Of a DNA stretch of 64,000 nucleotides, positions 1 through 64,000 are shown piece after piece (within the stretch, counting starts at the first letter, position 1; each line of letters begins with the position of its first letter). The notes beneath the pieces were generated by a model. It saw nothing but the letters and a program-made list of their open reading frames with translations, was not told where the DNA came from and made no database searches. The position numbers were made by a program, and so were the translations under genes. This DNA is from Rhynochetos jubatus (Eukaryota > Chordata > Aves > Eurypygiformes > Rhynochetidae): contig CM050665.1 in NCBI GenBank assembly GCA_027574665.1, positions 372,001-436,000 on the forward strand, read 5' to 3'.

Positions 1-277
1 GAGCAGGGGAAGGAGCCATGTCGGTGCAGTGTCGTGCTCCTCTTGGCAGGCCTTTGCAATCCCAATTATCCCTGGAGCTGTGGGCTTTCTGGTTCTCCGG
101 ACCCTAACCCTAACCCTAACCCTAGAAGTTGCCGACCGTGGTTTCCGGCCACGACCCCCCCGGGTTCTGGCTAGGAAAGCAGGGGAAGGAGCCATGTCTG
201 TGAAGTGTCGTGCTCCTCTTGGCAGGCCTTTGCAATCCCAATTATCCCTGGAGCTGTGGGCTTTCTGGTTCTCCGGA

Positions 278-301
278 CCCTAACCCTAACCCTAACCCTA
301 G
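278..301 (+). repeat. Four-tract telomeric block (CCCTAA x3 + CCCTAG), the standard form
   Basis: Three perfect CCCTAA units followed by CCCTAG, flanked by TTCTCCGGA and GAAGTTGC. The - strand reads as four GGG tracts spaced by TTA, the minimum for one intramolecular telomeric G-quadruplex. It also contains overlapping TAGGGTT-type sites of the kind bound by TRF1 and TRF2 Myb domains in vertebrates. The sequence is seen directly; binding and folding are inferred. This form recurs in most monomers of the window. Confidence 0.95.
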
Positions 302-322
302 AAGTTGCTGACCGCGGTTTCC

Positions 323-332
323 GGCCATGGCC
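323..332. repeat. 10-bp perfect palindrome GGCCATGGCC
   Basis: A variant of the usual GGCCACGGCC produced by a C to T change at the CpG. It recurs near 2638, 5653 and 8309 in block A. The change also creates an ATG on the + strand, which opens a short repeat-derived frame at 327. Confidence 0.8.
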
Positions 333-347
333 CCCCCTGGGTTCTGG

Positions 348-548
348 CTAGGAAAGCTGGGGAAGGAGCCATGTCTGTGCAGTGTCGTGCTCCTCTTGGC
401 AGGCCTTTGCAATCCCAATTATCCCTGGAGCTGTGGGCTTTCTGGTTCTCCGGACCCTAACCCTAACCCTAACCCTAGAAGTTGCCGACCGCGGTTTTCG
501 GCCACGGCCCCCCCGGGTTCTGGCTAGGAAAGCTGGGGAAGGAGCCAT
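348..548 (-). other. Representative G-strand ATG frame (66 codons) containing (Val-Arg)4
   Basis: This - strand frame starts at a true ATG (complement of GGAGCCAT) with G at -3 and G at +4, a favourable Kozak context. It reads MAPSPAFLARTRGG, then SRVRVRVRVRR from the TTAGGG block, and stops 66 codons on. About 25 similar frames exist, most in block A (for example 1056-1256, 2306-2506, 4610-4810 and 9039-9239) in 176-bp units. One at 31516-31893 spans two monomers (125 codons). Valine-arginine and glycine-leucine repeat peptides have been reported from TERRA RNA, so the resemblance is notable. Nothing in the window shows transcription or translation, and I treat it as a non-gene. Confidence 0.55.
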
Positions 549-842
549 GTCGGTGCAGTGTCGTGCTCCTCTTGGCAGGCCTTTGCAATCCCAATTATCC
601 CTGGAGCTGTGGGCTTTCTGGTTCTCCGGACCCTAACCCTAACCCTAACCCTAGAAGTTGCCGACCGCGGTTTCCGGCCACGGCCCACCCCGGGGTTCTG
701 GCTAGGAAAGCAGGGGAAGGAGCCATGTCTGTGCAGTGTCGTGCTCCTCTTGGCAGGCCTTTGCAATCCCAATTATCCCTGGAGCTGTGGGCTTTCTGGT
801 TCTCCGGACCCTAACCCTAACCCTAACCCTAGAAGTTGCCGA

Positions 843-861
843 CCGTGGTTTCCGGCCACGG
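843..861. repeat. Short inverted repeat (6-bp stem, 7-base loop) in CCGTGG-type monomers
   Basis: CCGTGG (843-848), loop TTTCCGG, then CCACGG (856-861), perfectly complementary. In the commoner CCGCGG monomers one stem pair is a mismatch, so the perfect stem arises from a C to T change at a CpG. The same form recurs in many units, for example near 3150, 7408, 13625 and 63870. A biological role is not shown. Confidence 0.7.
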
Positions 862-1515
862 CCCCCCCCGGGTTCTGGCTAGGAAAGCAGGGGAAGGAGC
901 CATGTCTGTGAAGTGTCGTGCTCCTCTTGGCAGGCCTTTGCAATCCCAATTATCCCTGGAGCTGTGGGCTTTCTGGTTCTCCGGACCCTAACCCTAACCC
1001 TAACCCTAGAAGTTGCTGACCGCGGTTTCCGGCCACGGCCCCCCCTGGGTTCTGGCTAGGAAAGCTGGGGAAGGAGCCATGTCTGTGCAGTGTCGTGCTC
1101 CTCTTGGCAGGCCTTTGCAATCCCAATTATCCCTGGAGCCGTGGGCTTTCTGGTTCTCCGGACCCTAACCCTAACCCTAACCCTAGAAGTTGCCGACCGC
1201 GGTTTTCGGCCACGGCCCCCCCGGGTTCTGGCTAGGAAAGCTGGGGAAGGAGCCATGTCGGTACAGTGTCGTGCTCCTCTTGGCAGGCCTTTGCAATCCC
1301 AATTATCCCTGGAGCTGTGGGCTTTCTGGTTCTCCGGACCCTAACCCTAACCCTAACCCTAGAAGTTGCCGACCGCGGTTTCCGGCCACGGCCCCCCCTG
1401 GGTTCTGGCTAGGAAAGCAGGGGAAGGAGCCATGTCTGTGCAGTGTCGTGCTCCTCTTGGCAGGCCTTTGCAATCCCAATTATCCCTGGAGCTGTGGGCT
1501 ATCTGGTTCTCCGGA

Positions 1516-1545
1516 CCCTAACCCTAACCCTAACCCTAACCCTAG
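1516..1545 (+). repeat. Five-tract telomeric block (CCCTAA x4 + CCCTAG), long form
   Basis: One extra CCCTAA makes the monomer about 183 bp. I count about 29 such blocks, for example near 4360, 5250, 6840, 11620, 12870, 13230, 15010, 16795, 18035, 23481, 29487, 35500, 37965, 47079, 49905, 51500, 58545, 60482 and 63305. Some carry a degenerate unit, such as CCCTAAACC near 4360, 11625 and 14830 or GACACTAA near 2051. Confidence 0.93.
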
Positions 1546-2316
1546 AAGTTGCCGACCGCGGTTTCCGGCCACGGCCCCCCCTGGGTTCTGGCTAGGAAAG
1601 CAGGGGAAGGAGCCATGTCTGTGCAGTGTCGTGCTCCTCTTGGCAGGCCTTTGCAATCCCAATTATCCCTGGAGCTGTGGGCTTTCTGGTTCTCCGGACC
1701 CTAACCCTAACCCTAACCCTAGAAGTTGCTGACCGTGGATTCCGGCCACGGCCCCCCCTGGGTTCTGGCTAGGAAAGCAGGGGAAGGAGCCATGTCTGTG
1801 AAGTGTCGTGCTCCTCTTGGCAGGCCTTTGCAATCCCAATTATCCCTGGAGCTGTGGGCTTTCTGGTTCTCCGGACCCTAACCCTAACCCTAACCCTAGA
1901 AGTTGCTGACCGCGGTTTCCGGCCACGGCCCCCCCTGGGTTCTGGCTAGGAAAGCTGGGGAAGGAGCCATGTCTGTGCAGTGTCGTGCTCCTCTTGGCAG
2001 GCCTTTGCAATCCCAATTATCCCTGGAGCTGTGGGCTTTCTGGTTCTCCGGACACTAACCCTAACCCTAACCCTAACCCTAGAAGTTGCCGACCGCGGTT
2101 TCCGGCCACGGCCCCCCCGGGGTTCTGGCTAGGAGAGCAGGGGAAGGAGCCATGTCTGTGCAGTGTCGTGCTCCTCTTGGCAGGCCTTTGCAATCCCAAT
2201 TATCCCTGGAGCTGTGGGCTTTCTGGTTCTCCGGACCCTAACCCTAACCCTAACCCTAGAAGTTGCTGACCGCGGTTTCCGGCCACGGCCCCCCCGGGGT
2301 TCTGGCTAGGAAAGCA

Positions 2317-4620
2317 GGGGAAGGAGCCATGTCGGTGCAGTGTCGTGCTCCTCTTGGCAGGCCTTTGCAATCCCAATTATCCCTGGAGCTGTGGGCTTTC
2401 TGGTTCTCCGGACCCTAACCCTAACCCTAACCCTAGAAGTTGCCGACCGTGGTTTCCGGCCACGACCCCCCCGGGTTCTGGCTAGGAAAGCAGGGGAAGG
2501 AGCCATGTCTGTGAAGTGTCGTGCTCCTCTTGGCAGGCCTTTGCAATCCCAATTATCCCTGGAGCTGTGGGCTTTCTGGTTCTCCGGACCCTAACCCTAA
2601 CCCTAACCCTAGAAGTTGCTGACCGCGGTTTCCGGCCATGGCCCCCCCTGGGTTCTGGCTAGGAAAGCTGGGGAAGGAGCCATGTCTGTGCAGTGTCGTG
2701 CTCCTCTTGGCAGGCCTTTGCAATCCCAATTATCCCTGGAGCTGTGGGCTTTCTGGTTCTCCGGACCCTAACCCTAACCCTAACCCTAGAAGTTGCCGAC
2801 CGCGGTTTTCGGCCACGGCCCCCCCGGGTTCTGGCTAGGAAAGCTGGGGAAGGAGCCATGTCGGTGCAGTGTCGTGCTCCTCTTGGCAGGCCTTTGCAAT
2901 CCCAATTATCCCTGGAGCTGTGGGCTTTCTGGTTCTCCGGACCCTAACCCTAACCCTAACCCTAGAAGTTGCCGACCGCGGTTTCCGGCCACGGCCCACC
3001 CCGGGTTCTGGCTAGGAAAGCAGGGGAAGGAGCCATGTCTGTGCAGTGTCGTGCTCCTCTTGGCAGGCCTTTGCAATCCCAATTATCCCTGGAGCTGTGG
3101 GCTTTCTGGTTCTCCGGACCCTAACCCTAACCCTAACCCTAGAAGTTGCCGACCGTGGTTTCCGGCCACGGCCCCCCCCGGGTTCTGGCTAGGAAAGCAG
3201 GGGAAGGAGCCATGTCTGTGAAGTGTCGTGCTCCTCTTGGCAGGCCTTTGCAATCCCAATTATCCCTGGAGCTGTGGGCTTTCTGGTTCTCCGGACCCTA
3301 ACCCTAACCCTAACCCTAGAAGTTGCCGACCGTGGTTTCCGGCCACGGCCCCCCCCGGGTTCTGGCTAGGAAAGCAGGGGAAGGAGCCATGTCTGTGCAG
3401 TGTCGTGCTCCTCTTGGCAGGCCTTTGCAATCCCAATTATCCCTGGAGCTGTGGGCTTTCTGGTTCTCCGGACCCTAACCCTAACCCTAACCCTAGAAGT
3501 TGCCGACCGTGGTTTCCGGCCACGGCCCCCCCCGGGTTCTGGCTAGGAAAGCAGGGGAAGGAGCCATGTCTGTGAAGTGTCGTGCTCCTCTTGGCAGGCC
3601 TTTGCAATCCCAATTATCCCTGGAGCTGTGGGCTTTCTGGTTCTCCGGACCCTAACCCTAACCCTAACCCTAGAAGTTGCTGACAGCGGTTTCCGGCCAC
3701 GGCCCCCCCTGGGTTCTGGCTAGGAAAGCTGGGGAAGGAGCCATGTCTGTGCAGTGTCGTGCTCCTCTTGGCAGGCCTTTGCAATCCCAATTATCCCTGG
3801 AGCCGTGGGCTTTCTGGTTCTCCGGACCCTAACCCTAACCCTAACCCTAGAAGTTGCCGACCGCGGTTTTCGGCCACGGCCCCCCCGGGTTCTGGCTAGG
3901 AAAGCTGGGGAAGGAGCCATGTCGGTACAGTGTCGTGCTCCTCTTGGCAGGCCTTTGCAATCCCAATTATCCCTGGAGCTGTGGGCTTTCTGGTTCTCCG
4001 GACCCTAACCCTAACCCTAACCCTAGAAGTTGCCGACCGCGGTTTCCGGCCACGGCCCCCCCTGGGTTCTGGCTAGGAAAGCAGGGGAAGGAGCCATGTC
4101 TGTGCAGTGTCGTGCTCCTCTTGGCAGGCCTTTGCAATCCCAATTATCCCTGGAGCTGTGGGCTTTCTGGTTCTCCGGACCCTAACCCTAACCCTAACTC
4201 TAGAAGTTGCCGACCGCGGTTTCCGGCCACGGCCCCCCCTTGGTTCTGGCTAGGAAAGCTGGGGAAGGAGCCATGTCTGTGCAGTGTCGTGCTCCTCTTG
4301 GCAGGCCTTTGCAATCCCAATTATCCCTGGAGCTGTGGGCTTTCTGGTTCTCCGGACCCTAAACCTAACCCTAACCCTAACCCTAGAAGTTGCCGACCGC
4401 GGTTTCCGGCCACGGCCCCCCCGGGGTTCTGGCTAGGAGAGCAGGGGAAGGAGCCATGTCTGTGCAGTGTCGTGCTCCTCTTGGCAGGCCTTTGCAATCC
4501 CAATTATCCCTGGAGCTGTGGGCTTTCTGGTTCTCCGGACCCTAACCCTAACCCTAACCCTAGAAGTTGCTGACCGCGGTTTCCGGCCACGGCCCCCCCG
4601 GGGTTCTGGCTAGGAAAGCA
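2317..4620 (+). repeat. Block A higher-order copy 2 (13 monomers, 2,304 bp)
   Basis: Opening units match copy 1 in order: CACGACCCC near 2460, TGAAGTG and CATGGCC, TTTTCGG near 2808, CACCCCGG near 2997. The middle differs, with CCGTGG units repeated near 3150, 3330 and 3510. The end again has a five-tract block with CCCTAAACC near 4360, GAGAGCAG and GTTGCTGAC. Equal monomer number with different internal composition suggests mosaic exchange. Confidence 0.83.
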
Positions 4621-7600
4621 GGGGAAGGAGCCATGTCGGTGCAGTGTCGTGCTCCTCTTGGCAGGCCTTTGCAATCCCAATTATCCCTGGAGCTGTGGGC
4701 TTTCTGGTTCTCCGGACCCTAACCCTAACCCTAACCCTAGAAGTTGCCGACCGTGGTTTCCGGCCACGACCCCCCCGGGTTCTGGCTAGGAAAGCAGGGG
4801 AAGGAGCCATGTCTGTGAAGTGTCGTGCTCCTCTTGGCAGGCCTTTGCAATCCCAATTATCCCTGGAGCTGTGGGCTTTCTGGTTCTCCGGACCCTAACC
4901 CTAACCCTAACCCTAGAAGTTGCTGACCGCGGTTTCCGGCCATGGCCCCCTCTGGGTTCTGGCTAGGAAAGCTGGGGAAGGAGCCATGTCTGTGCAGTGT
5001 CGTGCTCCTCTTGGCAGGCCTTTGCAATCCCAATTATCCCTGGAGCTGTGGGCTTTCTGGTTCTCCGGACCCTAACCCTAACCCTAACCCTAGAAGTTGC
5101 CGACCGCGGTTTTCGGCCACGGCCCCCCCGGGTTCTGGCTAGGAAAGCTGGGGAAGGAGCCATGTCGGTGCAGTGTCGTGCTCCTCTTGGCAGGCCTTTG
5201 CAATCCCAATTATCCCTGGAGCTGTGGGCTATCTGGTTCTCCGGACCCTAACCCTAACCCTAACCCTAACCCTAGAAGTTGCCGACCGCGGTTTCCGGCC
5301 ACGGCCCCCCCTGGGTTCTGGCTAGGAAAGCAGGGGAAGGAGCCATGTCTGTGCAGTGTCGTGCTCCTCTTGGCAGGCCTTTGCAATCCCAATTATCCCT
5401 GGAGCTGTGGGCTTTCTGGTTCTCCGGACCCTAACCCTAACCCTAACCCTAGAAGTTGCCGACCGTGGATTCCGGCCACGGCCCCCCCTGGGTTCTGGTT
5501 AGGAAAGCAGGGGAAGGAGCCATGTCTGTGCAGTGTCGTGCTCCTCTTGGCAGGCCTTTGCAATCCCAATTATCCCTGGAGCTGTGGGCTTTCTGGTTCT
5601 CCGGACCCTAACCCTAACCCTAACCCTAGAAGTTGCCGACTGCGGTTTCCGGCCATGGCCCCCCCTGGGTTCTGGCTAGGAAAGCTGGGGAAGGAGCCAT
5701 GTCTGTGCAGTGTCGTGCTCCTCTTGGCAGGCCTTTGCAATCCCAATTATCCCTGGAGCTGTGGGCTTTCTGGTTCTCCGGACCCTAACCCTAACCCTAA
5801 CCCTAGAAGTTGCCGACCGCGGTTTTCGGCCACGGCCCCCCCGGGTTCTGGCTAGGAAAGCTGGGGAAGGAGCCATGTCGGTGCAGTGTCGTGCTCCTCT
5901 TGGCAGGCCTTTGCAATCCCAATTATCCCTGGAGCTGTGGGCTTTCTGGTTCTCCGGACCCTAACCCTAACCCTAACCCTAGAAGTTGCCGACCGCGGTT
6001 TCCGGCCACGGCCCCCCCTGGGTTCTGGCTAGGAAAGCAGGGGAAGGAGCCATGTCTGTGCAGTGTCGTGCTCCTCTTGGCAGGCCTTTGCAATCCCAAT
6101 TATCCCTGGAGCTGTGGGCTTTCTGGTTCTCCGGACCCTAACCCTAACCCTAACCCTAGAAGTTGCCGACCGTGGTTTCCGGCCACGGCCCCCCCCGGGT
6201 TCTGGCTAGGAAAGCAGGGGAAGGAGCCATGTCTGTGAAGTGTCGTGCTCCTCTTGGCAGGCCTTTGCAATCCCAATTATCCCTGGAGCTGTGGGCTTTC
6301 TGGTTCTCCGGACCCTAACCCTAACCCTAACCCTAGAAGTTGCTGACCGCGGTTTCCGGCCACGGCCCCCCCTGGGTTCTGGCTAGGAAAGCTGGGGAAG
6401 GAGCCATGTCTGTGCAGTGTCGTGCTCCTCTTGGCAGGCCTTTGCAATCCCAATTATCCCTGGAGCCGTGGGCTTTCTGGTTCTCCGGACCCTAACCCTA
6501 ACCCTAACCCTAGAAGTTGCCGACCGCGGTTTTCGGCCACGGCCCCCCCGGGTTCTGGCTAGGAAAGCTGGGGAAGGAGCCATGTCGGTACAGTGTCGTG
6601 CTGCTCTTGGCAGGCCTTTGCAATCCCAATTATCCCTGGAGCTGTGGGCTTTCTGGTTCTCCGGACCCTAACCCTAACCCTAACCCTAGAAGTTGCCGAC
6701 CGCGGTTTCCGGCCACGGCCCCCCCTGGGTTCTGGCTAGGAAAGCAGGGGAAGGAGCCATGTCTGTGCAGTGTCGTGCTCCTCTTGGCAGGCCTTTGCAA
6801 TCCCAATTATCCCTGGAGCTGTGGGCTATCTGGTTCTCCGGACCCTAACCCTAACCCTAACCCTAACCCTAGAAGTTGCCGACCGCGGTTTCCGGCCACG
6901 GCCCCCCCTGGGTTCTGGCTAGGAAAGCTGGGGAAGGAGCCATGTCTGTGCAGTGTCGTGCTCCTCTTGGCAGGCCTTTGCAATCCCAATTATCCCTGGA
7001 GCTGTGGGCTTTCTGGTTCTCCGGACCCTAACCCTAACCCTAACCCTAGAAGTTGCCGACCGCGGTTTTCGGCCACGGCCCCCCCGGGTTCTGGCTAGGA
7101 AAGCTGGGGAAGGAGCCATGTCGGTGCAGTGTCGTGCTCCTCTTGGCAGGCCTTTGCAATCCCAATTATCCCTGGAGCTGTGGGCTTTCTGGTTCTCCGG
7201 ACCCTAACCCTAACCCTAACCCTAGAAGTTGCCGACCGCGGTTTCCGGCCACGGCCCCCCCTGGGTTCTGGCTAGGAAAGCAGGGGAAGGAGCCATGTCT
7301 GTGCAGTGTCGTGCTCCTCTTGGCAGGCCTTTGCAATCCCAATTATCCCTGGAGCTGTGGGCTTTCTGGTTCTCCGGACCCTAACCCTAACCCTAACCCT
7401 AGAAGTTGCCGACCGTGGTTTCCGGCCACGGCCCCCCCCGGGTTCTGGCTAGGAAAGCAGGGGAAGGAGCCATGTCTGTGAAGTGTCGTGCTCCTCTTGG
7501 CAGGCCTTTGCAATCCCAATTATCCCTGGAGCTGTGGGCTTTCTGGTTCTCCGGACCCTAACCCTAACCCTAACCCTAGAAGTTGCTGACCGCGGTTTCC

Positions 7601-7989
7601 GGCCACGGCCCCCCCTGGGTTCTGGCTAGGAAAGCTGGGGAAGGAGCCATGTCTGTGCAGTGTCGTGCTCCTCTTGGCAGGCCTTTGCAATCCCAATTAT
7701 CCCTGGAGCCGTGGGCTTTCTGGTTCTCCGGACCCTAAGCCTAACCCTAACCCTAGAAGTTGCCGACCGCGGTTTTCGGCCACGGCCCCCCCGGGTTCTG
7801 ACTAGGAAAGCTGGGGAAGGAGCCATGTCTGTGCAGTGTCGTGCTCCTCTTGGCAGGCCTTTGCAATCCCAATTATCCCTGGAGCTGTGGGCTTTCTGGT
7901 TCTCCGGACCCTAACCCTAACCCTAACCCTAGAAGTTGCTGACCGCGGTTTCCGGCCACGGCCCCCCCGGGGTTCTGGCTAGGAAAGCA
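4621..7989 (+). repeat. Block A higher-order copy 3, expanded (19 monomers, 3,369 bp)
   Basis: Opens with CACGACCCC near 4765, TGAAGTG, then CATGGCC and TTTTCGG, as in copies 1 and 2. It is about six monomers longer, with several TTTTCGG units (near 5110, 5820, 6530, 7067 and 7777) and two GGGCTATCTGG five-tract units (near 5228 and 6827). The extra length looks like internal amplification of the four-monomer run. Confidence 0.8.
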
Positions 7990-9402
7990 GGGGAAGGAGC
8001 CATGTCGGTGCAGTGTCGTGCTCCTCTTGGCAGGCCTTTGCAATCCCAATTATCCCTGGAGCTGTGGGCTTTCTGGTTCTCCGGACCCTAACCCTAACCC
8101 TAACCCTAGAAGTTGCCGACCGTGGTTTCCGGCCACGACCCCCCCGGGTTCTGGCTACGAAAGCAGGGGAAGGAGCCATGTCTGTGAAGTGTCGTGCTCC
8201 TCTTGGCAGGCCTTTGCAATCCCAATTATCCCTGGAGCTGTGGGCTTTCTGGTTCTCCGGACCCTAACCCTAACCCTAACCCTAGAAGTTGCTGACCGCG
8301 GTTTCCGGCCATGGCCCCCCCTGGGTTCTGGCTAGGAAAGCTGGGGAAGGAGCCATGTCTGTGCAGTGTCGTGCTCCTCTTGGCAGGCCTTTGCAATCCC
8401 AATTATCCCTGGAGCTGTGGGCTTTCTGGTTCTCCGGACCCTAACCCTAACCCTAACCCTAGAAGTTGCCGACCGCGGTTTTCGGCCACGGCCCCCCCGG
8501 GTTCTGGCTAGGAAAGCTGGGGAAGGAGCCATGTCGGTGCAGTGTCGTGCTCCTCTTGGCAGGCCTTTGCAATCCCAATTATCCCTGGAGCTGTGGGCTT
8601 TCTGGTTCTCCGGACCCTAACCCTAACCCTAACCCTAGAAGTTGCCGACCGCGGTTTCCGGCCACGGCCCACCCCGGGTTCTGGCTAGGAAAGCAGGGGA
8701 AGGAGCCATGTCTGTGCAGTGTCGTGCTCCTCTTGGCAGGCCTTTGCAATCCCAATTATCCCTGGAGCTGTGGGCTTTCTGGTTCTCCGGACCCTAACCC
8801 TAACCCTAACCCTAGAAGTTGCCGACCGTGGTTTCCGGCCACGGCCCCCCCCGGGTTCTGGCTAGGAAAGCAGGGGAAGGAGCCATGTCTGTGAAGTGTC
8901 GTGCTCCTCTTGGCAGGCCTTTGCAATCCCAATTATCCCTGGAGCTGTGGGCTTTCTGGTTCTCCGGACCCTAACCCTAACCCTAACCCTAGAAGTTGCT
9001 GACCGCGGTTTCCGGCCACGGCCCCCCCTGGGTTCTGGCTAGGAAAGCTGGGGAAGGAGCCATGTCTGTGCAGTGTCGTGCTCCTCTTGGCAGGCCTTTG
9101 CAATCCCAATTATCCCTGGAGCTGTGGGCTTTCTGGTTCTCCGGACCCTAACCCTAACCCTAACCCTAGAAGTTGCCGACCGCGGTTTTCGGCCACGGCC
9201 CCCCCGGGTTCTGGCTAGGAAAGCTGGGGAAGGAGCCATGTCGGTACAGTGTCGTGCTCCTCTTGGCAGGCCTTTGCAATCCCAATTATCCCTGGAGCTG
9301 TGGGCTTTCTGGTTCTCCGGACCCTAACCCTAACCCTAGCCCTAGAAGTTGCCGACCGCGGTTTCAGGCCACGGCCCCCCCTGGGTTCTGGCTATGAAAG
9401 CT
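7990..9402 (+). repeat. Block A higher-order copy 4, truncated
   Basis: Opens with CACGACCCC near 8136, here with GGCTACGAAAGC in place of GGCTAGGAAAGC, then TGAAGTG, CATGGCC, TTTTCGG near 8480 and a CACCCCGG unit near 8670. It runs into a six-monomer tandem duplication instead of completing the 13-monomer order. Confidence 0.78.
8343..9402 (+). repeat. Six-monomer tandem duplication, copy 1 (1,060 bp)
   Basis: This unit and the next share the order TTTTCGG, CACCCCGG, CCGTGG, TGAAGTG, TTTTCGG, CGGTAC and both end with the rare GGCTATGAAAGC (9391 and 10451). Equivalent features are exactly 1,060 bp apart. This copy alone has CCTAGCCCTAG near 9337 and TTTCAGGCC near 9362. Confidence 0.88.
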
Positions 9403-10462
9403 GGGGAAGGAGCCATGTCTGTGCAGTGTCGTGCTCCTCTTGGCAGGCCTTTGCAATCCCAATTATCCCTGGAGCTGTGGGCTTTCTGGTTCTCCGGACC
9501 CTAACCCTAACCCTAACCCTAGAAGTTGCCGACCGCGGTTTTCGGCCACGGCCCCCCCGGGTTCTGGCTAGGAAAGCTGGGGAAGGAGCCATGTCGGTGC
9601 AGTGTCGTGCTCCTCTTGGCAGGCCTTTGCAATCCCAATTATCCCTGGAGCTGTGGGCTTTCTGGTTCTCCGGACCCTAACCCTAACCCTAACCCTAGAA
9701 GTTGCCGACCGCGGTTTCCGGCCACGGCCCACCCCGGGTTCTGGCTAGGAAAGCAGGGGAAGGAGCCATGTCTGTGCAGTGTCGTGCTCCTCTTGGCAGG
9801 CCTTTGCAATCCCAATTATCCCTGGAGCTGTGGGCTTTCTGGTTCTCCGGACCCTAACCCTAACCCTAACCCTAGAAGTTGCCGACCGTGGTTTCCGGCC
9901 ACGGCCCCCCCCGGGTTCTGGCTAGGAAAGCAGGGGAAGGAGCCATGTCTGTGAAGTGTCGTGCTCCTCTTGGCAGGCCTTTGCAATCCCAATTATCCCT
10001 GGAGCTGTGGGCTTTCTGGTTCTCCGGACCCTAACCCTAACCCTAACCCTAGAAGTTGCTGACCGCGGTTTCCGGCCACGGCCCCCCCTGGGTTCTGGCT
10101 AGGAAAGCTGGGGAAGGAGCCATGTCTGTGCAGTGTCGTGCTCCTCTTGGCAGGCCTTTGCAATCCCAATTATCCCTGGAGCTGTGGGCTTTCTGGTTCT
10201 CCGGACCCTAACCCTAACCCTAACCCTAGAAGTTGCCGACCGCGGTTTTCGGCCACGGCCCCCCCGGGTTCTGGCTAGGAAAGCTGGGGAAGGAGCCATG
10301 TCGGTACAGTGTCGTGCTCCTCTTGGCAGGCCTTTGCAATCCCAATTATCCCTGGAGCTGTGGGCTTTCTGGTTCTCCGGACCCTAACCCTAACCCTAAC
10401 CCTAGAAGTTGCCGACCGCGGTTTCCGGCCACGGCCCCCCCTGGGTTCTGGCTATGAAAGCT
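9403..10462 (+). repeat. Six-monomer tandem duplication, copy 2 (1,060 bp)
   Basis: Tandem partner of the preceding 1,060-bp unit, sharing its marker order and the terminal GGCTATGAAAGC. It lacks the two private substitutions of copy 1, so the duplication preceded those changes or they were removed by conversion. Confidence 0.88.
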
Positions 10463-13669: not shown

Positions 13670-14729
13670 GGGGAAGGAGCCATGTCTGTGCAGTGTCGTG
13701 CTCCTCTTGGCAGGCCTTTGCAATCCCAATTATCCCTGGAGCTGTGGGCTTTCTGGTTCTCCGGACCCTAACCCTAACCCTAACCCTAGAAGTTGCCGAC
13801 CGCGGTTTCCGGCCACGGCCCCCCCTGGGTTCTGGCTAGGAGAGCAGGGGAAGGAGCCATGTCGGTGCAGTGTCGTGCTCCTCTTGGCAGGCCTTTGCAA
13901 TCCCAATTATCCCTGGAGCTGTGGGCTTTCTGGTTCTCCGGACCCTAACCCTAACCCTAACCCTAGAAGTTGCCGACCGCGGTTTCCGGCCACGGCCCCC
14001 CTGGGTTCTGGTTAGGAAAGCAGGGGAAGGAGCCATGTCTGTGCAGTGTTGTGCTCCTCTTGGCAGGCCTTTGCAATCCCAATTATCCCTGGAGCTGTGG
14101 GCTTTCTGGTTCTCCGGACCCTAACCCTAACCCTAACCCTAGAAGTTGCCGACCGCGGTTTCCGGCCACGGCCCCCCCCGGGTTCTGGCTAGGAAATCAG
14201 GGGAAGGAGCCATGTCTGTGCAGTGTCGTGCTCCTCTTGGCAGGCCTTTGCAATCCCAATTATCCCTGGAGCTGTGGGCTTTCTGGTTCTCCGGACCCTA
14301 ACCCTAACCCTAACCCTAGAAGTTGCCGACCGCGGTTTCCGGCCACGGCCACCCCCGGGTTCTGGCTAGGAAAGCTGGGGAAGGAGCCATGTCTGTGCAG
14401 TGTCGTGCTCCTCTTGGCAGGCCTTTGCAATCCCAATTATCCCTGGAGCTGTGGGCTTTCTGGTTCTCCGGACCCTAACCCTAACCCTAACCCTAGAAGT
14501 TGCCGACCGTGGTTTCCGGCCACGGCCCCCCCCGGGCTCTGGCTAGGAAAGCTGGGGAAGGAGCCATGTCTGTGCAGTGTCGTGCTCCTCTTGGCAGGCC
14601 TTTGCAATCCCAATTATCCCTGGAGCTGTGGGCTTTCTGGTTCTCCGGACCCTAACCCTAACCCTAACCCTAGAAGTTGCCGACCGCGGTTTCCGGCCAC
14701 GGCCCCCCCTGGGTTCTGCTAGGAAAGCT

Positions 14730-17333: not shown

Positions 17334-17351
17334 CCCTAACCCTAACCCTAG
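17334..17351 (+). repeat. First three-tract telomeric block (CCCTAA x2 + CCCTAG), short form
   Basis: One CCCTAA fewer than standard, giving a 171-bp monomer. I see none upstream of this point and about fifty downstream, for example near 17690, 18570, 19450, 22440, 25440, 28440, 32340, 36210, 40085, 45165, 50630, 54860, 57505, 59445, 61560 and 63140. Three GGG tracts on the - strand are too few for a single intramolecular telomeric quadruplex. Most are followed by GTTGCTGAC rather than GTTGCCGAC. Confidence 0.93.
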
Positions 17352-53600: not shown

Positions 53601-56600
53601 TTCTGGTTCTCCGGACCCTAACCCTAACCCTAACCCTAGAAGTTGCCGACCGTGGTTTCCGGCCACGGCCCCCCCCGGGTTCTGGCTAGGAAAGCAGGGG
53701 AAGGAGCCATGTCTGTGCAGTGTCGTGCTCCTCTTGGCAGGCCTTTGCAATCCCAATTATCCCTGGAGCTGTGGGCTTTCTGGTTCTCCGGACCCTAACC
53801 CTAACCCTAGAAGTTGCGGACCGCGGTTTCCGGCCACGGCCCCCCCCGGGTTCTGGCTAGGAAAGCAGGGGAAGGAGCCATATCTGTGCAGTGTCGTGCT
53901 CCTCTTGGCAGGCCTTTGCAATCCCAATTATCCCTGGAGCTGTGGGCTTTCTGGTTCTCCGGACCCTAACCCTAACCCTAACCCTAGAAGTTGCCGACCG
54001 CGGTTTCCGGCCACGGCCCCCCCTGGGTTCTGGCTAGGAAAGCTGGGGAAGGAGCCATGTCTGTGCAGTGTCGTGCTCCTCTTGGCAGGCCTTTGCAATC
54101 CCAATTATCCCTGGAGCTGTGGGCTTTCTGGTTCTCCGGACCCTAACCCTAACCCTAACCCTAGAAGTTGCCGACCGCGGTTTCTGGCCACGGCCCCCCC
54201 TGGGTTCTGGCTAGGAAAGCTGGGGAAGGAGCCATGTCTGTGCAGTGTCGTGCTCCTCTTGGCAGGCCTTTGCAATCCCAATTATCCCTGGAGCTGTGGG
54301 CTTTCTGGTTCTCCGGACCCTAACCCTAACCCTAACCCTAGAAGTTGCCGACCGCGGTTTCCGGCCACGGCCCCACCTGGGTTCTGGCTAGGAATGCTGG
54401 GGAAGGAGCCATGTCGGTGCAGTGTCGTGCTCCTCTTGGCAGGCCTTTGCAATCCCAATTATCCCTGGAGCTGTGGGCTTTCTGGTTCTCCGGACCCTAA
54501 CCCTAACCCTAACCCTAGAAGTTGCTGACCGCGGTTTCCGGCCACGGCCCCCCCCGGGTTCTGGCTAGGAAAGCAGGGGAAGGAGCCATATCTGTGCAGT
54601 GTCGTGCTCCTCTTGGCAGGCCTTTGCAATCCCAATTATCCCTGGAGCTGTGGGCTTTCTGGTTCTCCGGACCCTAACCCTAACCCTAACCCTAGAAGTT
54701 GCCGACCGCGGTTTCCGGCCACGGCCCCCCCTGGGTTCTGGCTAGGAAAGCTGGGGAAGGAGCCATGTCTGTGCAGTGTCGTGCTCCTCTTGGCAGGCCT
54801 TTGCAATCCCAATTATCCCTGGAGCTGTGGGCTTTCTGGTTCTCCGGACCCTAACCCTAACCCTAGAAGTTGCTGACCGCGGTTTCCGGCCACGGCCCCC
54901 CCCGGGTTCTGGCTAGGAAAGCAGGGGAAGGAGCCATGTCGGTGCAGTGTCGTGCTCCTCTTGGCAGGCCTTTGCAATCCCAATTATCCCTGGAGCTGTG
55001 GGCTTTCTGGTTCTCCGGACCCTAACCCTAACCCTAACCCTAGAAGTTGCCGACCGCGGTTTCCGGCCACGGCCCCCCCTGGGTTCTGGCTAGGAAAGCA
55101 GGGGAAGGAGCCATGTCGGTGCAGTGTCGTGCTCCTCTTGGCAGGCCTTTGCAATCCCAATTATCCCTGGAGCTGTGGGCTTTCTGGTTCTCCGGACCCT
55201 AACCCTAACCCTAACCCTAGAAGTTGCCGACCGCGGTTTCCGGCCACGGCCCCCCCTGGGTTCTGGCTAGGAAAGCTGGGGAAGGAGCCATGTCGGAGCA
55301 GTGTCGTGCTCCTCTTGGCAGGCCTTTGCAATCCCAATTATCCCTGGAGCTGTGGGCTATCTGGTTCTCCGGACCCTAACCCTAACCCTAACCCTAGAAG
55401 TTGCCGACCGCGGTTTCCGGCCACGGCCCCCCCGGGGTTCTGGCTAGGAAAGCAGGGGAAGGAGCCATGTCTGTGCAGTGTCGTGCTCCTCTTGGCAGGC
55501 CTTTGCAATCCCAATTATCCCTGGAGCTGTGGGCTTTCTGGTTCTCCGGACCCTAACCCTAACCCTAACCCTAGAAGTTGCCGACCGCGGTTTCTGGGCA
55601 TGGCCCCCCCCGGGTTCTGGCTAGGAAAGCTGGGGAAGGAGCCATGTCTGTGCAGTGTCGTGCTCCTCTTGGCAGGCCTTTGCAATCCCAATTATCCCTG
55701 GAGCTGTGGGCTTTCTGGTTCTCCGGACCCTAACCCTAACCCTAACCCTAGAAGTTGCCGACCGCGGTTTCTGGCCACGGCCCCCCCTGGGTTCTGGCTA
55801 GGAAAGCTGGGGAAGGAGCCATGTCGGTGCAGTGTCGTGCTCCTCTTGGCAGGCCTTTGCAATCCCAATTATCCCTGGAGCTGTGGGCTTTCTGGTTCTC
55901 CGGACCCTAACCCTAACCCTAACCCTAGAAGTTGCCGACCGCGGTTTCCGGCCACGGCCCCCCCTGGGTTCTGGCTAGGAAAGCTGGGGAAGGAGCCATG
56001 TCTGTGCAGTGTCGTGCTCCTCTTGGCAGGCCTTTGCAATCCCAATTATCCCTGGAGCTGTGGGCTTTCTGGTTCTCCGGACCCTAACCCTAACCCTAAC
56101 CCTAGAAGTTGCCGACCGTGGTTTCCGGCCACGGCCCCCCCTGGGTTCTGGCTAGGAAAGCAGGGGAAGGAGCCATGTCTGTGCAGTGTCGTGCTCCTCT
56201 TGGCAGGCCTTTGCAATCCCAATTATCCCTGGAGCTGTGGGCTTTCTGGTTCTCCGGACCCTAACCCTAACCCTAGAAGTTGCCGACCGCGGTTTCCGGC
56301 CACGGCCCCCACGGGGTTCTGGCTAGGAAAGCAGGGGAAGGAGCCATGTCTGTGCAGTGTCGTGCTCCTCTTGGCAGGCCTTTGCAATCCCAATTATCCC
56401 TGGAGCTGTGGGCTTTCTGGTTCTCCGGACCCTAACCCTAACCCTAACCCTAGAAGTTGCCGACCGCGGTTTCCGGCCACGGCCCCCCCTGGGTTCTGGC
56501 TAGGAAAGCAGGGGAAGGAGCCATGTCTGTGCAGTGTCGTGCTCCTCTTGGCAGGCCTTTGCAATCCCAATTATCCCTGGAGCTGTGGGCTTTCTGGTTC

Positions 56601-57566
56601 TCCGGACCCTAACCCTAACCCTAACCCTAGAAGTTGCCGACCGCGGTTTCCGGCCACGGCCCCCCCCGGGTTCTGGCTAGGAAAGCTGGGGAAGGAGCCA
56701 TGTCTGTGCAGTGTCGTGCTCCTCTTGGCAGGCCTTTGCAATCCCAATTATCCCTGGAGCTGTGGGCTTTCTGGTTCTCTGGACCCTAACCCTAACCCTA
56801 ACCCTAGAAGTTGCCGACCGCGGTTTCTGGCCACGGCCCCCCCTGGGTTCTGGCTAGGAAAGCTGGGGAAGGAGCCATGTCGGTGCAGTGTCGTGCTCCT
56901 CTTGGCAGGCCTTTGCAATCCCAATTATCCCTGGAGCTGTGGGCTTTCTGGTTCTCCGGACCCTAACCCTAACCCTAACCCTAGAAGTTGCCGACCGCGG
57001 TTTCCGGCCACGGCCCCCCCTGCGTTCTGGCTAGGAAGGCAGGGGAAGGAGCCATGTCTGTGCAGTGTCGTGCTCCTCTTGGCAGGCCTTTGCAATCCCA
57101 ATTATCCCTGGAGCTGTGGGCTTTCTGGTTCTCCGGACCCTAACCCTAACCCTAACCCTAGAAGTTGCCGACCGCGGTTTCTGGCCACGGCCCCCCCTGG
57201 GTTCTGGCTAGGAAAGCTGGGGAAGGAGCCATGTCGGTGCAGTGTCGTGCTCCTCTTGGCAGGCCTTTGCAATCCCAATTATCCCTGGAGCTGTGGGCTT
57301 TCTGGTTCTCCGGACCCTAACCCTAACCCTAACCCTAGAAGTTGCCGACCGCGGTTTCCAACCACGGCCCCCCCCGGGTTCTGGCTAGGAAAGCAGGGGA
57401 AGGAGCCATGTCTGTGCAGTGTCGTGCTCCTCTTGGCAGGCCTTTGCAATCCCAATTATCCCTGGAGCTGTGGGCTTTCTGGTTCTCCGGACCCTAACCC
57501 TAACCCTAGAAGTTGCTGACCGCGGTTTCCGGCCACGGCCCCCCCCGGGTTCTGGCTAGGAAAGCA

Positions 57567-59507
57567 GGGGAAGGAGCCATGTCGGTGCAGTGTCGTGCTC
57601 CTCTTGGCAGGCCTTTGCAATCCCAATTATCCCTGGAGCTGTGGGCTTTCTGGTTCTCCGGACCCTAACCCTAACCCTAACCCTAGAAGTTGCCGACCGC
57701 GGTTTCCGGCCACGGCCCCCCCTGGGTTCTGGCTAGGAAAGCAGGGGAAGGAGCCATGTCTGTGCAGTGTCGTGCTCCTCTTGGCAGGCCTTTGCAATCC
57801 CAATTATCCCTGGAGCTGTGGGCTTTCTGGTTCTCCGGACCCTAACCCTAACCCTAACCCTAGAAGTTGCCGACCGCGGTTTCTGGCCACGGCCCCCCCT
57901 GGGTTCTGGCTAGGAAAGCTGGGGAAGGAGCCATGTCGGTGCAGTGTCGTGCTCCTCTTGGCAGGCCTTTGCAATCCCAATTATCCCTGGAGCTGTGGGC
58001 TTTCTGGTTCTCCGGACCCTAACCCTAACCCTAACCCTAGAAGTTGCCGACCGCGGTTTCCGGCCACGGCCCCCCCTGGGTTCTGGCTAGGAAAGCAGGG
58101 GAAGGAGCCATGTCTGTGCAGTGTCGTGCTCCTCTTGGCAGGCCTTTGCAATCCCAATTATCCCTGGAGCTGTGGGCTTTCTGGTTCTCCGGACCCTAAC
58201 CCTAACCCTAGAAGTTGCCGACCGCGGTTTCCAACCACGGCCCCCCCCGGGTTCTGGCTAGGAAAGCAGGGGAAGGAGCCATATCTGTGCAGTGTCGTGC
58301 TCCTCTTGGCAGGCCTTTGCAATCCCAATTACCCCTGGAGCTGTGGGCTTTCTGGTTCTCCGGACCCTAACCCTAACCCTAACCCTAGAAGTTGCCGACC
58401 GCGGTTTCCGGCCACGGCCCCCACGGGGTTCTGGCTAGGAAAGCTGGGGAAGGAGCCATGTCGGTGCAGTGTCGTGCTCCTCTTGGCAGGCCTTTGCAAT
58501 CCCAATTATCCCTGGAGCTGTGGGCTATCTGGTTCTCCGGACCCTAACCCTAACCCTAACCCTAACCCTAGAAGTTGCCGACCGCGGTTTCCGGCCACGG
58601 CCCCCACGGGGTTCTGGCTAGGAAAGCAGGGGAAGGAGCCATGTCTGTGCAGTGTCGTGCTCCTCTTGGCAGGCCTTTGCAATCCCAATTATCCCTGGAG
58701 CTGTGGGCTTTCTGGTTCTCCGGACCCTAACCCTAACCCTAACCCTAGAAGTTGCCGACCGCGGTTTCCGGCCACGGCCCCCCCTGGGTTCTGGCTAGGA
58801 AAGCTGGGGAAGGAGCCATGTCTGTGCAGTGTCGTGCTCCTCTTGGCAGGCCTTTGCAATCCCAATTATCCCTGGAGCTGTGGGCTTTCTGGTTCTCCGG
58901 ACCCTAACCCTAACCCTAACCCTAGAAGTTGCCGACCGCGGTTTCCGGCCACGGCCCCCCCTGGGTTCTGGCTAGGAAAGCTGGGGAAGGAGCCATGTCT
59001 GTGCAGTGTCGTGCTCCTCTTGGCAGGCCTTTGCAATCCCAATTATCCCTGGAGCTGTGGGCTTTCTGGTTCTCCGGACCCTAACCCTAACCCTAACCCT
59101 AGAAGTTGCCGACCGCGGTTTCTGGCCACGGCCCCCCCTGGGTTCTGGCTAGGAAAGCTGGGGAAGGAGCCATGTCGGTGCAGTGTCGTGCTCCTCTTGG
59201 CAGGCCTTTGCAATCCCAATTATCCCTGGAGCTGTGGGCTTTCTGGTTCTCCGGACCCTAACCCTAACCCTAACCCTAGAAGTTGCCGACCGCGGTTTCC
59301 AACCACGGCCCCCCCCGGGTTCTGGCTAGGAAAGCAGGGGAAGGAGCCATGTCTGTGCAGTGTCGTGCTCCTCTTGGCAGGCCTTTGCAATCCCAATTAT
59401 CCCTGGAGCTGTGGGCTTTCTGGTTCTCCGGACCCTAACCCTAACCCTAGAAGTTGCTGACCGCGGTTTCCGGCCACGGCCCCCCCCGGGTTCTGGCTAG
59501 GAAAGCA
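57567..59507 (+). repeat. Eleven-monomer unit, copy 1 (1,941 bp)
   Basis: Begins with a CGGTGC unit after a three-tract block, includes the 360-bp cassette and ends with TTCCAACCACGG and three-tract units. The first six or seven monomers match the following unit in order at an offset of 1,941 bp. Confidence 0.83.
58269..58628 (+). repeat. 360-bp linked-variant cassette, copy 5
   Basis: TTACCCC near 58330, GGGCTATCTGG, a five-tract block near 58545 and CCCCACGGGG near 58605. It differs from other copies by TCGGTGCAG instead of TCGGAGCAG, and its first unit also ends in CCCCACGGGG near 58420. Confidence 0.82.
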
Positions 59508-61625
59508 GGGGAAGGAGCCATGTCGGTGCAGTGTCGTGCTCCTCTTGGCAGGCCTTTGCAATCCCAATTATCCCTGGAGCTGTGGGCTTTCTGGTTCTCC
59601 GGACCCTAACCCTAACCCTAACCCTAGAAGTTGCCGACCGCGGTTTCCGGCCACGGCCCCCCCTGGGTTCTGGCTAGGAAAGCAGGGGAAGGAGCCATGT
59701 CTGTGCAGTGTCGTGCTCCTCTTGGCAGGCCTTTGCAATCCCAATTATCCCTGGAGCTGTGGGCTTTCTGGTTCTCCGGACCCTAACCCTAACCCTAACC
59801 CTAGAAGTTGCCGACCGCGGTTTCCGGCCACGGCCCCCCCTGGGTTCTGGCTAGGAAAGCTGGGGAAGGAGCCATGTCGGTGCAGTGTCGTGCTCCTCTT
59901 GGCAGGCCTTTGCAATCCCAATTATCCCTGGAGCTGTGGGCTTTCTGGTTCTCCGGACCCTAACCCTAACCCTAACCCTAGAAGTTGCCGACCGCGGTTT
60001 CCGGCCACGGCCCCCCCTGGGTTCTGGCTAGGAAAGCAGGGGAAGGAGCCATGTCTGTGCAGTGTCGTGCTCCTCTTGGCAGGCCTTTGCAATCCCAATT
60101 ATCCCTGGAGCTGTGGGCTTTCTGGTTCTCCGGACCCTAACCCTAACCCTAGAAGTTGCCGACCGCGGTTTCCAACCACGGCCCCCCCTGGGTTCTGGCT
60201 AGGAAAGCAGGGGAAGGAGCCATATCTGTGCAGTGTCGTGCTCCTCTTGGCAGGCCTTTGCAATCCCAATTACCCCTGGAGCTGTGGGCTTTCTGGTTCT
60301 CCGGACCCTAACCCTAACCCTAACCCTAGAAGTTGCCGACCGCGGTTTCCGGCCACGGCCCCCCCTGGGTTCTGGCTAGGAAAGCGGGGGAAGGAGCCAT
60401 GTCGGAGCAGTGTCGTGCTCCTCTTGGCAGGCCTTTGCAATCCCAATTATCCCTGGAGCTGTGGGCTATCTGGTTCTCCGGACCCTAACCCTAACCCTAA
60501 CCCTAACCCTAGAAGTTGCCGACCGCGGTTTCCGGCCACGGCCCCCACGGGGTTCTGGCTAGGAAAGCAGGGGAAGGAGCCATGTCTGTGCAGTGTCGTG
60601 CTCCTCTTGGCAGGCCTTTGCAATCCCAATTATCCCTGGAGCTGTGGGCTTTCTGGTTCTCCGGACCCTAACCCTAACCCTAACCCTAGAAGTTGCCGAC
60701 CGCGGTTTCCGGCCACGGCCCCCCCTGGGTTCTGGCTAGGAAAGCAGGGGAAGGAGCCATGTCTGTGCAGTGTCGTGCTCCTCTTGGCAGGCCTTTGCAA
60801 TCCCAATTATCCCTGGAGCTGTGGGCTTTCTGGTTCTCCGGACCCTAACCCTAACCCTAACCCTAGAAGTTGCCGACCGCGGTTTCTGGGCATGGCCCCC
60901 CCTGGGTTCTGGCTAGGAAAGCAGGGGAAGGAGCCATGTCTGTGCAGTGTCGTGCTCCTCTTGGCAGGCCTTTGCAATCCCAATTATCCCTGGAGCTGTG
61001 GGCTTTCTGGTTCTCCGGACCCTAACCCTAACCCTAACCCTAGAAGTTGCCGACCGCGGTTTCCGGCCACGGCCCCCCCTGGGTTCTGGCTAGGAAAGCT
61101 GGGGAAGGAGCCATGTCTGTGCAGTGTCGTGCTCCTCTTGGCAGGCCTTTGCAATCCCAATTATCCCTGGAGCTGTGGGCTTTCTGGTTCTCCGGACCCT
61201 AACCCTAACCCTAACCCTAGAAGTTGCCGACCGCGGTTTCCGGCCACGGCCCCCCCGGGGTTCTGGCTAGGAAAGCTGGGGAAGGAGCCATGTCGGTGCA
61301 GTGTCGTGCTCCTCTTGGCAGGCCTTTGCAATCCCAATTATCCCTGGAGCTGTGGGCTTTCTGGTTCTCCGGACCCTAACCCTAACCCTAACCCTAGAAG
61401 TTGCCGACCGCGGTTTCCGGCCACGGCCCCCCCCGGGTTCTGGCTAGGAAAGCAGGGGAAGGAGCCATGTCTGTGCAGTGTCGTGCTCCTCTTGGCAGGC
61501 CTTTGCAATCCCAATTATCCCTGGAGCTGTGGGCTTTCTGGTTCTCCGGACCCTAACCCTAACCCTAGAAGTTGCTGACCGCGGTTTCCGGCCACGGCCC
61601 CCCCCGGGTTCTGGCTAGGAAAGCA
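59508..61625 (+). repeat. Eleven-monomer unit, copy 2, one monomer longer (2,118 bp)
   Basis: Tandem partner of 57567-59507. It exceeds it by 177 bp, exactly one monomer. The early order matches, including the cassette, while the later part has a TTCTGGGCATGG unit near 60888 that copy 1 lacks. Confidence 0.82.
60210..60569 (+). repeat. 360-bp linked-variant cassette, copy 6
   Basis: TTACCCC near 60270, TCGGAGCAG near 60402, GGGCTATCTGG, a five-tract block near 60482 and CCCCACGGGG near 60543. The unit junction reads AAAGCGGGGG near 60383, a private variant. It lies exactly 1,941 bp after copy 5. Confidence 0.85.
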
Positions 61626-64000
61626 GGGGAAGGAGCCATATCTGTGCAGTGTCGTGCTCCTCTTGGCAGGCCTTTGCAATCCCAATTATCCCTGGAGCTG
61701 TGGGCTTTCTGGTTCTCCGGACCCTAACCCTAACCCTAGAAGTTGCTGACCGCGGTTTCCGGCCACGGCCCCCCCCGGGTTCTGGCTAGGAAAGCAGGGG
61801 AAGGAGCCATATCTGTGCAGTGTCGTGCTCCTCTTGGCAGGCCTTTGCAATCCCAATTATCCCTGGAGCTGTGGGCTTTCTGGTTCTCCGGACCCTAACC
61901 CTAACCCTAACCCTAGAAGTTGCCGACCGCGGTTTCCGGCCACGGCCCCCCCTGGGTTCTGGCTAGGAAAGCAGGGGAAGGAGCCATGTCTGTGCAGTGT
62001 CGTGCTCCTCTTGGCAGGCCTTTGCAATCCCAATTATCCCTGGAGCTGTGGGCTTTCTGGTTCTCCGGACCCTAACCCTAACCCTAACCCTAGAAGTTGC
62101 CGACCGCGGTTTCCGGCCACGGCCCCCCCTGGGTTCTGGCTAGGAAAGCAGGGGAAGGAGCCATGTCTGTGCAGTGTCGTGCTCCTCTTGGCAGGCCTTT
62201 GCAATCCCAATTATCCCTGGAGCTGTGGGCTTTCTGGTTCTCCAGACCCTAACCCTAACCCTAACCCTAGAAGTTGCCGACCGCGGTTTCCGGCCACGGC
62301 CCCCCCTGGGTTCTGGCTAGGAAAGCTGGGGAAGGAGCCATGTCTGTGCAGTGTCGTGCTGCTCTTGGCAGGCCTTTGCAATCCCAATTATCCCTGGAGC
62401 TGTGGGCTTTCTGGTTCTCCGGACCCTAACCCTAACCCTAACCCTAGAAGTTGCCGACCGCGGTTTCTGGCCACGGCCCCCCCTGGGTTCTGGCTAGGAA
62501 AGCTGGGGAAGGAGCCATGTCTGTGCAGTGTCGTGCTCCTCTTGGCAGGCCTTTGCAATCCCAATTATCCCTGGAGCTGTGGGCTTTCTGGTTCTCCGGA
62601 CCCTAACCCTAACCCTAACCCTAGAAGTTGCCGACCGCGGTTTCCGGCCACGGCCCCCCCTGGGTTCTAGCTAGGAAAGCAGGGGAAGGAGCCATGTCGG
62701 TGCAGTGTCGTGCTCCTCTTGGCAGGCCTTTGCAATCCCAATTATCCCTGGAGCTGTGGGCTTTCTGGTTCTCCGGACCCTAACCCTAACCCTAACCCTA
62801 GAAGTTGCCGACCGTGGTTTCCGGCCACGGCCCCCCCCGGGTTCTGGCTAGGAAAGCAGGGGAAGGAGCCATGTCTGTGCAGTGTCGTGCTCCTCTTGGC
62901 AGGCCTTTGCAATCCCAATTATCCCTGGAGCTGTGGGCTTTCTGGTTCTCCAGACCCTAACCCTAACCCTAACCCTAGAAGTTGCCGACCGTGGTTTCCG
63001 GCCACGGCCCCCCCCGGGTTCTGGCTAGGAAAGCTGGGGAAGGAGCCATGTCTGTGTAGTGTCGTGCTCCTCTTGGCAGGCCTTTGCAATCCCAATTATC
63101 CCTGGAGCTGTGGGCTTTCTGGTTCTCCGGACCCTAACCCTAACCCTAGAAGTTGCCGACCGCGGTTTCCGGCCACGGCCCCCCACTGGGTTCTGGCGAG
63201 GAAAGCTGGGGAAGGAGCCATGTCGGAGCAGTGTCGTGCTCCTTTTGGCAGGCCTTTGCAATCCCAATTATCCCTGGAGCTGTGGGCTATCTGGTTCTCC
63301 GGACCCTAACCCTAACCCTAACCCTAACCCTAGAAGTTGCCGACCGCGGTTTCCGGCCACGGCCCCCACGGGGTTCTGGCTAGGAAAGCAGGGGAAGGAG
63401 CCATGTCTGTGCAGTGTCGTGCTCCTCTTGGCAGGCCTTTGCAATCCCAATTATCCCTGGAGCTGTGGGCTTTCTGGTTCTCCGGACCCTAACCCTAACC
63501 CTAACCCTAGAAGTTGCCGACCGCGGTTTCCGGCCACGGCCCCCCCTGGGTTCTGGCTAGGAAAGCAGGGGAAGGAGCCATGTCTGTGCAGTGTCGTGCT
63601 CCTCTTGGCAGGCCTTTGCAATCCCAATTATCCCTGGAGCTGTGGGCTTTCTGGTTCTCCGGACCCTAACCCTAACCCTAACCCTAGAAGTTGCCGACCG
63701 CGGTTTCCGGCCACGGCCCCCCCTGGGTTCTGGCTAGGAATGCTGGGGAAGGAGCCATGTCTGTGCAGTGTCGTGCTCCTCTTGGCAGGCCTTTGCAATC
63801 CCAATTATCCCTGGAGCTGTGGGCTTTCTGGTTCTCCGGACCCTAACCCTAACCCTAACCCTAGAAGTTGCCGACCGTGGTTTCCGGCCACGGCCCCCCC
63901 CGGGTTCTGGCTAGGAAAGCAGGGGAAGGAGCCATGTCTGTGCAGTGTCGTGCTCCTCTTGGCAGGCCTTTGCAATCCCAATTATCCCTGGAGCTGTGGG

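Follow-up and report, generated by a model that had tools for sequence, protein, structure and literature searches.

The stretch of DNA analysed here (the window: 64,000 nucleotides, C20:372001-436000, taken from contig CM050665.1 of the 1.331-Gb, 148-contig Rhynochetos jubatus assembly GCA_027574665.1) is a long array of complex 177-bp monomers with internal telomere units, that is, satellite DNA with an embedded telomere motif. Judged by sequence, this repeat is probably a major satellite of the centromeres, or of the pericentromeric DNA directly beside them, on many of this bird's mid-sized and small chromosomes, a reading that draws on the nucleosome-sized unit, on the presence of one long array on nine of twelve sampled scaffolds, and on a homogeneous core lying between diverged flanks on four of them. 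Globin exons from C19 and C2 matched bird chains best among natural chains, in line with an avian genome: for the beta exon the 12 top-ranked entries were bird chains, ahead of human and turtle chains, and for the alpha-A exon six human double-alpha constructs, scored over two domains, preceded 15 bird alpha-A or alpha chains and a final turtle chain.

A 177-bp monomer with an internal telomere block

Tandem Repeats Finder resolved the window into one unbroken tandem array (period 177, 362.5 copies, 96% matches), and cutting at a conserved anchor gave 362 full head-to-tail monomers in a single orientation, in agreement with a preliminary description of about 360 consecutive same-orientation monomers over at least 64 kb; the C20 array is larger still, every slice sampled between about 6.2 and 740 kb consisting of satellite and the one at 760 kb of other sequence. 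The 362 distances between monomers were mostly 177 bp (237), followed by 171 (38), 176 (37) and 183 bp (29), and the 6-bp steps (171, 177, 183) tracked the length of the telomere block. Mean pairwise identity among the 362 monomers was 96.4%, 145 of them were distinct, and local exact duplications spanned at most 1,032 bp.

Telomere units lay on one strand throughout the window (CCCTAA 1051, TTAGGG 0, CCCTAG 363), and CCCTAACCCTAA occurred 681 times against 0.04 expected from shuffles. Of the 361 unbroken blocks that end in CCCTAG, most (276) contained three CCCTAA units and the others two (57), four (22) or one (6), so that the two to four units originally attributed to each monomer were found in 355 blocks and six fell short. 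The CCCTAG hexamer, reported earlier as embedded in the monomers, is indeed present, yet it arises where the final perfect unit meets the core base G and represents no variant telomere unit. Read in the ACCCTA frame, a perfect run was present in 341 of the 354 parsed monomers (the other 8 of 362 had a changed flank base), comprising four (270), three (52) or five units (19). The locus is a 177-bp array and not a telomere run at a single site, and the original judgement, which set it apart both from telomeres and from ordinary interstitial telomeric runs, stands.

Beyond the window, 15 other ten-kb pieces of the same monomer type (subfamily A, defined by a perfect telomere block) contained the perfect block with exact flanks in 733 of 824 monomers and another form in 91. 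Exact blocks of one to six units numbered 0, 68, 3,953, 38,628, 3,009 and 47 across the genome, four units accounting for 84.5% of the 45,705 exact copies; these counts extend to six units, require both flanks (a shorter left flank for six units) and exclude copies with a changed flank or block. The longest blocks among the sampled monomers, of seven units, were seen in two monomers at C16:8.09-8.10 Mb.

Variation along the monomer was uneven. In 24-bp segments, window monomers diverged from their consensus at 0.06-0.4% of bases over positions 1-84, which include telomere block sequence, and at 1.9-4.3% over positions 85-168. In permutations with polymorphic-column thresholds of 2, 4 and 8 copies, the emptiest 100-bp circular stretch gave p = 0 of 2,000, 0.0075 and 0.002, and the longest empty run gave p = 0.013, 0.137 and 0.029, five of the six tests falling below 0.05.

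Arrays, subfamilies and polarity across the genome

A 27-bp core word of the satellite matched the assembly 54,233 times, split between the two strands as 28,941 and 25,292, with 0 matches for the reversed word used as control; the count is equivalent to about 9.6 Mb, which is 0.72% of the assembly, the consensus of the second subfamily (B, below) being without the exact word. Arrays were present on twelve scaffolds larger than 10 Mb (C11, C13, C14, C16, C19, C20, C21, C22, C23, C24, C27 and C28), and satellite matches also occurred on the smaller contigs C55, C122, C128 and C144. Places of the rare block forms (47 and 68) did not include C12, C15, C17, C18, C25, C26 or C29-C54; they also missed the array-bearing C27 and are accordingly no proof of absence elsewhere. 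The smallest array, the right-hand one of C19, measured about 0.13-0.3 Mb and the largest, on C13 and C14, about 1.5 Mb, some ends being unbounded. Under sparse sampling, nine of the twelve scaffolds carried a single array, and 8 of 15 arrays, on seven scaffolds, lay well inside their scaffold at relative positions of 0.24-0.39, 0.65 or 0.78.

Two subfamilies were distinguished: A, the window type, and B, with a 176-bp unit identical to A at 153 of 177 aligned positions (86%) and a degenerate block, ACGCTAACCCTAGCCCTAACCCTAA. The complete order B-A-B, with homogeneous A between B flanks, was observed on 4 of 12 scaffolds, sampled sparsely in slices of 300-1000 bases and in pieces of ten kb: C20 (B 6.2-20 kb, A 30-665 kb, B 675-740 kb), C22 (B 1-50 kb, A 100-650 kb, B 700 kb), C24 (B 3.29 Mb, A 3.30-3.66 Mb, B 3.68-3.72 Mb) and C28 (B 9.80 Mb, A 9.91-10.20 Mb, B 10.25 Mb). 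On C21, C23 and C27, B was observed on one side of A. Layering of the B-A-B kind is a pattern expected of evolving centromere arrays. By eye, B-side arrays bordered a CTGGAATTTCTCCTGGACTTGGG-like degenerate repeat at C20:3.8-6.2 kb and C27:8.85 Mb.

Monomers were almost as similar between scaffolds as within them (mean identity 0.9649 and 0.9660, respectively; 8 scaffolds, each with at most 40 monomers, C11 arrays excluded). The strand was uniform within each scaffold for every place listed by the search that located the window and by those for the rare block forms, and on scaffolds larger than 5 Mb, 14 of 15 arrays carried the block in the polarity of the telomere at their closer scaffold end (p = 0.001 in a two-sided sign test). 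Agreement was 11 of 12 (p = 0.006) when each scaffold contributed one array and C19 was represented by its disagreeing one, and 16 of 18 (p = 0.001) when C55, C122 and C128 were added, C144 being excluded from the count; the exceptions were C128 and the left-hand array on C19. This rule was first noticed on seven arrays, and the later eight on large scaffolds followed it in seven cases. The nearer scaffold end serves here as a proxy for the short arm, with scaffold joins unverified.

Older copies of the satellite lay outside the arrays. The first 100 core-word places listed comprised scattered copies on C2-C8 and a long array on C11. The scattered copies and diverged runs on C2-C8, the largest scaffolds, had best matches to A of about 78-89% and a decayed block, and some were runs of diverged monomers that filled a whole slice. 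Where monomers could be cut from them (9 loci, 16 monomers), the block site was mostly short and often degenerate telomere-like sequence; as these copies were located through the exact core word, comparison of their segments is biased. In other A loci and in B, the block was conserved about equally to the adjoining segment 1-61. Because the block occupies the same position in B and in the old scattered copies, it appears as an ancestral part of the unit and not as a recent capture; on this evidence from sequence comparison, the telomere block predates the A/B split and is ancestral to the satellite family. Near the ends of C27 and C28 we also observed two diverged satellite copies each, outside the arrays, the C28 pair being opposite in orientation to its array. 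A minisatellite with a 22-bp unit, GGCGGGGCTTAAGGGGCGAGGG or a close variant of it, was present within C20:1-3789, within C24:1-10000 and near the end of C28, and is perhaps subtelomeric.

The features of the window are collected in Table 1. The window also contained 45 open reading frames of at least 150 amino acids (the longest 916), which exist because 177 is divisible by 3 and were not taken for genes.

Table 1. Coordinates of the satellite array and of its first full monomer, numbered within the window.
Feature	Coordinates	Strand	Basis
177-bp satellite array, subfamily A, 362 full monomers; part of the C20 array (~6.2 kb to 740-760 kb)	2..64000	+	
First full monomer, example unit	40..215	+	sequence and monomer cutting
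Low-variation half, first copy (consensus 1-93, telomere block included)	40..132	+	
High-variation part, first copy (consensus 94-165; most polymorphic columns here)	133..204	+	
Telomere block of first monomer, (ACCCTA)4; G-rich strand is the - strand	101..124	+	
Three YTAGGGTTR sites and one four-tract G-quadruplex motif in the first-monomer block	101..124 plus flanking G		

A probable centromeric satellite and competing readings

If the satellite is centromeric or pericentromeric, its arrays would be kept alike through unequal exchange and gene conversion between the centromere-proximal regions of different chromosomes, with fresh homogeneous A copies emerging mid-array and pushing older B copies outward, and the telomere tract would be inherited as part of the unit. 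Telomere repeats disfavour nucleosomes in most eukaryotes, according to a review (PMC8122249), so the 24-bp tract would help to phase one nucleosome per monomer; a 30-bp linker (177 - 147) could accommodate the 24-bp block, and the tract may accordingly lie in the linker, with a predicted one TRF1/TRF2 dimer able to occupy it in each monomer. The fully assembled version, a centromere in which TRF1/TRF2 dimers on linker tracts phase the nucleosomes and a short-arm-directed polarity is kept by centromere-proximal exchange between chromosomes, is in our estimate quite unlikely.

Several observations weigh against a centromeric role. Seven of 15 arrays lay in the outer 3% of their scaffold (C19 twice, C20, C21, C22, C23 and C28), a placement that fits acrocentric chromosomes and, equally, subterminal blocks. 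Two arrays each were found on C11 (8.8 and 13.75-14.0 Mb), C19 (0-0.29 and 20.5 Mb) and C22 (0-0.7 and 5.8-6.15 Mb), so that some of them are not active centromeres unless the scaffolding is wrong. No B flank appeared in the sampled slices of C11, C13, C14, C16 and C19 (5 of 12 scaffolds), and the C11 arrays were farther from A (94.5-95.8% identity). The satellite also lacks the two features of human alpha-type centromeres, as no higher-order period was detected in the window or in 17 ten-kb pieces, and the CENP-B box, in its commonly given consensus, occurred 0 times in the window. Finally, selection on TRF-type sites was not significant, 8 A monomers having fewer than two sites against a random expectation of 12.0 ± 2.5 (P = 0.078). 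As for the paired arrays on C11, C19 and C22, relic centromeres, fusions and scaffolding errors are candidate causes.

The strongest competitor, which we regard as possible but on balance unlikely, holds that these arrays belong to the heterochromatin of short arms or pericentromeres and do not bear the kinetochore, a passive telomere tract being spread by short-arm exchange. The near-end position of the seven arrays just listed, the polarity matching the nearer end in nearly all arrays, the scarcely detectable chromosome-specific difference and the paired arrays on three scaffolds speak for it; the eight internal arrays on seven scaffolds and the B-A-B layering on four scaffolds speak against it.

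A second alternative, compatible with a centromere, concerns the tract itself, which may act as a platform where TRF1/TRF2 would bind once per nucleosome and recruit heterochromatin or attachment to the nuclear envelope; we consider this doubtful. TRF1/TRF2-type proteins bind the consensus YTAGGGTTR, which we applied in its familiar form. At least two such sites were present in 362/362 window monomers and in 820/828 monomers of 15 other A loci, which agrees, in principle, with the earlier suggestion that the array could seed the loading of telomere-binding proteins. The dominance of the four-unit block among exact genome copies points the same way, as does the retention of two sites in the degenerate block of the B consensus and in 71/77 B monomers, compared with 2/16 scattered old copies. 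A four-tract G-quadruplex motif was found in 299/362 window monomers and not in the B consensus. Against such a platform, randomly placed substitutions yield nearly equal numbers of sites, the adjoining non-telomeric segment 1-61 is about equally conserved, the narrow range of block lengths is explicable by slippage and homogenisation, and the scattered copies are more decayed throughout.

The possibility that a subtelomeric or captured-telomere unit was amplified by recombination-based telomere maintenance, in the manner of mTALT, is very unlikely. Telomere units do stand in tandem with non-telomeric sequence here, and the polarity and the near-end arrays would suit such an origin; however, the unit is only 177 bp compared with about 7.4 kb for mTALT, the block is ancestral, more than half of the arrays are internal, and pieces from, or close to, the ends of C20, C24 and C28 bear the different 22-bp minisatellite. 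The preliminary proposal of a captured telomere and subtelomere unit, read as a recent capture, is disfavoured on the same internal positions and on the occurrence of the block in B and in old copies, despite the arrays in the outer 3%. An assembly artefact, with the array collapsed or falsely extended, is most improbable given 145 distinct monomers among 362, the ordered B-A-B layers on four scaffolds and similar arrays on many scaffolds, and this worry is reduced yet remains in view of the three scaffolds with two arrays, the start of C19 and C22 inside an array and the unverified joins.

Significance and relation to known systems

In some birds the centromeres are marked by telomere probes. 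Such signals have been reported at the centromeres of some large chromosome pairs in three woodpecker species, in a study whose authors weigh fusion relics against telomere-resembling repeats (PMC5230766). The 177-bp satellite is a sequenced example of a telomere-resembling repeat, but its arrays were found on mid-sized and small scaffolds and not on the largest; satellites of this kind could partly explain telomere-probe signals away from chromosome ends. If each core word contributes 24 bp, the satellite supplies about 1.3 Mb of telomere sequence, whereas the perfect telomere runs in this assembly total 44 kb or more, assemblies being known to under-represent telomeres. On that assumption it would also create a large background in telomere measurement by quantitative polymerase chain reaction in this species, a method for which interstitial repeats are a known concern (PMC9804776). 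The satellite further offers a direct test of telomere-binding proteins as a part of vertebrate centromeric chromatin.

Among the papers listed by our literature searches we found no description or name for this satellite, with Repbase and Dfam uncompared and an existing description therefore possible, and six of its sequence fragments did not occur in the papers searched. A telomerase RNA was not detected, Rfam returning 0 matches on 3,000 bases and, on 420 bases, two weak long non-coding RNA matches of 12-14 bits (cut-off 75). Satellite matches were likewise absent from phages, plasmids and viral contigs (three patterns), and from prokaryote genomes (one pattern), and ARAGORN gave no match. 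Three candidates for comparison were dropped: FA-SAT of the cat, whose telomere-like motifs did not appear in PMC6379292 as far as available to us and whose host is not a bird; a TRF1-bound repeat of the naked mole-rat, not found among the papers listed; and the 177-bp repeat of Trypanosoma brucei, given a host genome of 1.331 Gb.

Among systems with amplified telomere sequence, mTALT of mouse embryonic stem cells using alternative lengthening of telomeres resembles the satellite in that non-telomeric sequence is amplified together with telomere repeats, and differs as a region of about 7.4 kb situated at telomeres, recent in origin and described from cultured telomerase-deficient cells (PMC7889907); a recent kb-scale unit at chromosome ends is not what we observed, the unit being short, its block ancestral and 8/15 arrays internal. 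TERC-ITS and other interstitial telomeric sequences are also internal vertebrate telomere repeats, but they are described as single insertion loci at break sites (PMC8537989), in contrast to the tandem satellite here. Bird centromeres are known to harbour satellites particular to certain classes of chromosome, and centromeric repeats include APL-HaeIII of the mallard (190 bp, a similar unit size) and CNM-41 of the chicken (PMC11745021), and the lapwing has microchromosome satellites that are tandem repeats as well (PMC10887557); the descriptions of these mallard, chicken and lapwing repeats, as far as available to us, mention no telomere block, which sets them apart.

Closer in structure are satellites that carry telomere motifs. 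PaB6 of the plant Prospero autumnale is a 249-bp pericentromeric satellite of very high copy number, with which a telomere probe co-localises and one length variant of which is a TTAGGG insertion (PMC4273535); it shares with the present repeat several intact TTAGGG units per monomer, the very high copy number and, given the pericentromeric location of PaB6, possibly the chromosomal setting, whereas its seven perfect units are dispersed through other sequence, alongside imperfect ones, and ours form a continuous four-unit tract. In the bat Carollia perspicillata, CpeSat05-72 and CpeSat02-24 are vertebrate satellites that bear telomere sequence and give pericentromeric telomere-probe signals, but their units are named as 72 and 24 bp and CpeSat02-24 is the telomere repeat itself (PMC12467311). 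DraI of Pagellus erythrinus (Sparidae) and RUSI of Rumex induratus likewise contain telomere motifs, and RUSI is also centromeric on some chromosomes; both differ in a reported subtelomeric distribution, and the RUSI motifs are degenerate (PMC12467311, PMC5615363). Collectively, satellites with telomere motifs are already known, and what differs here is a continuous, mostly perfect four-unit tract within an otherwise unique bird repeat, together with centromere-like arrays and a shared polarity.

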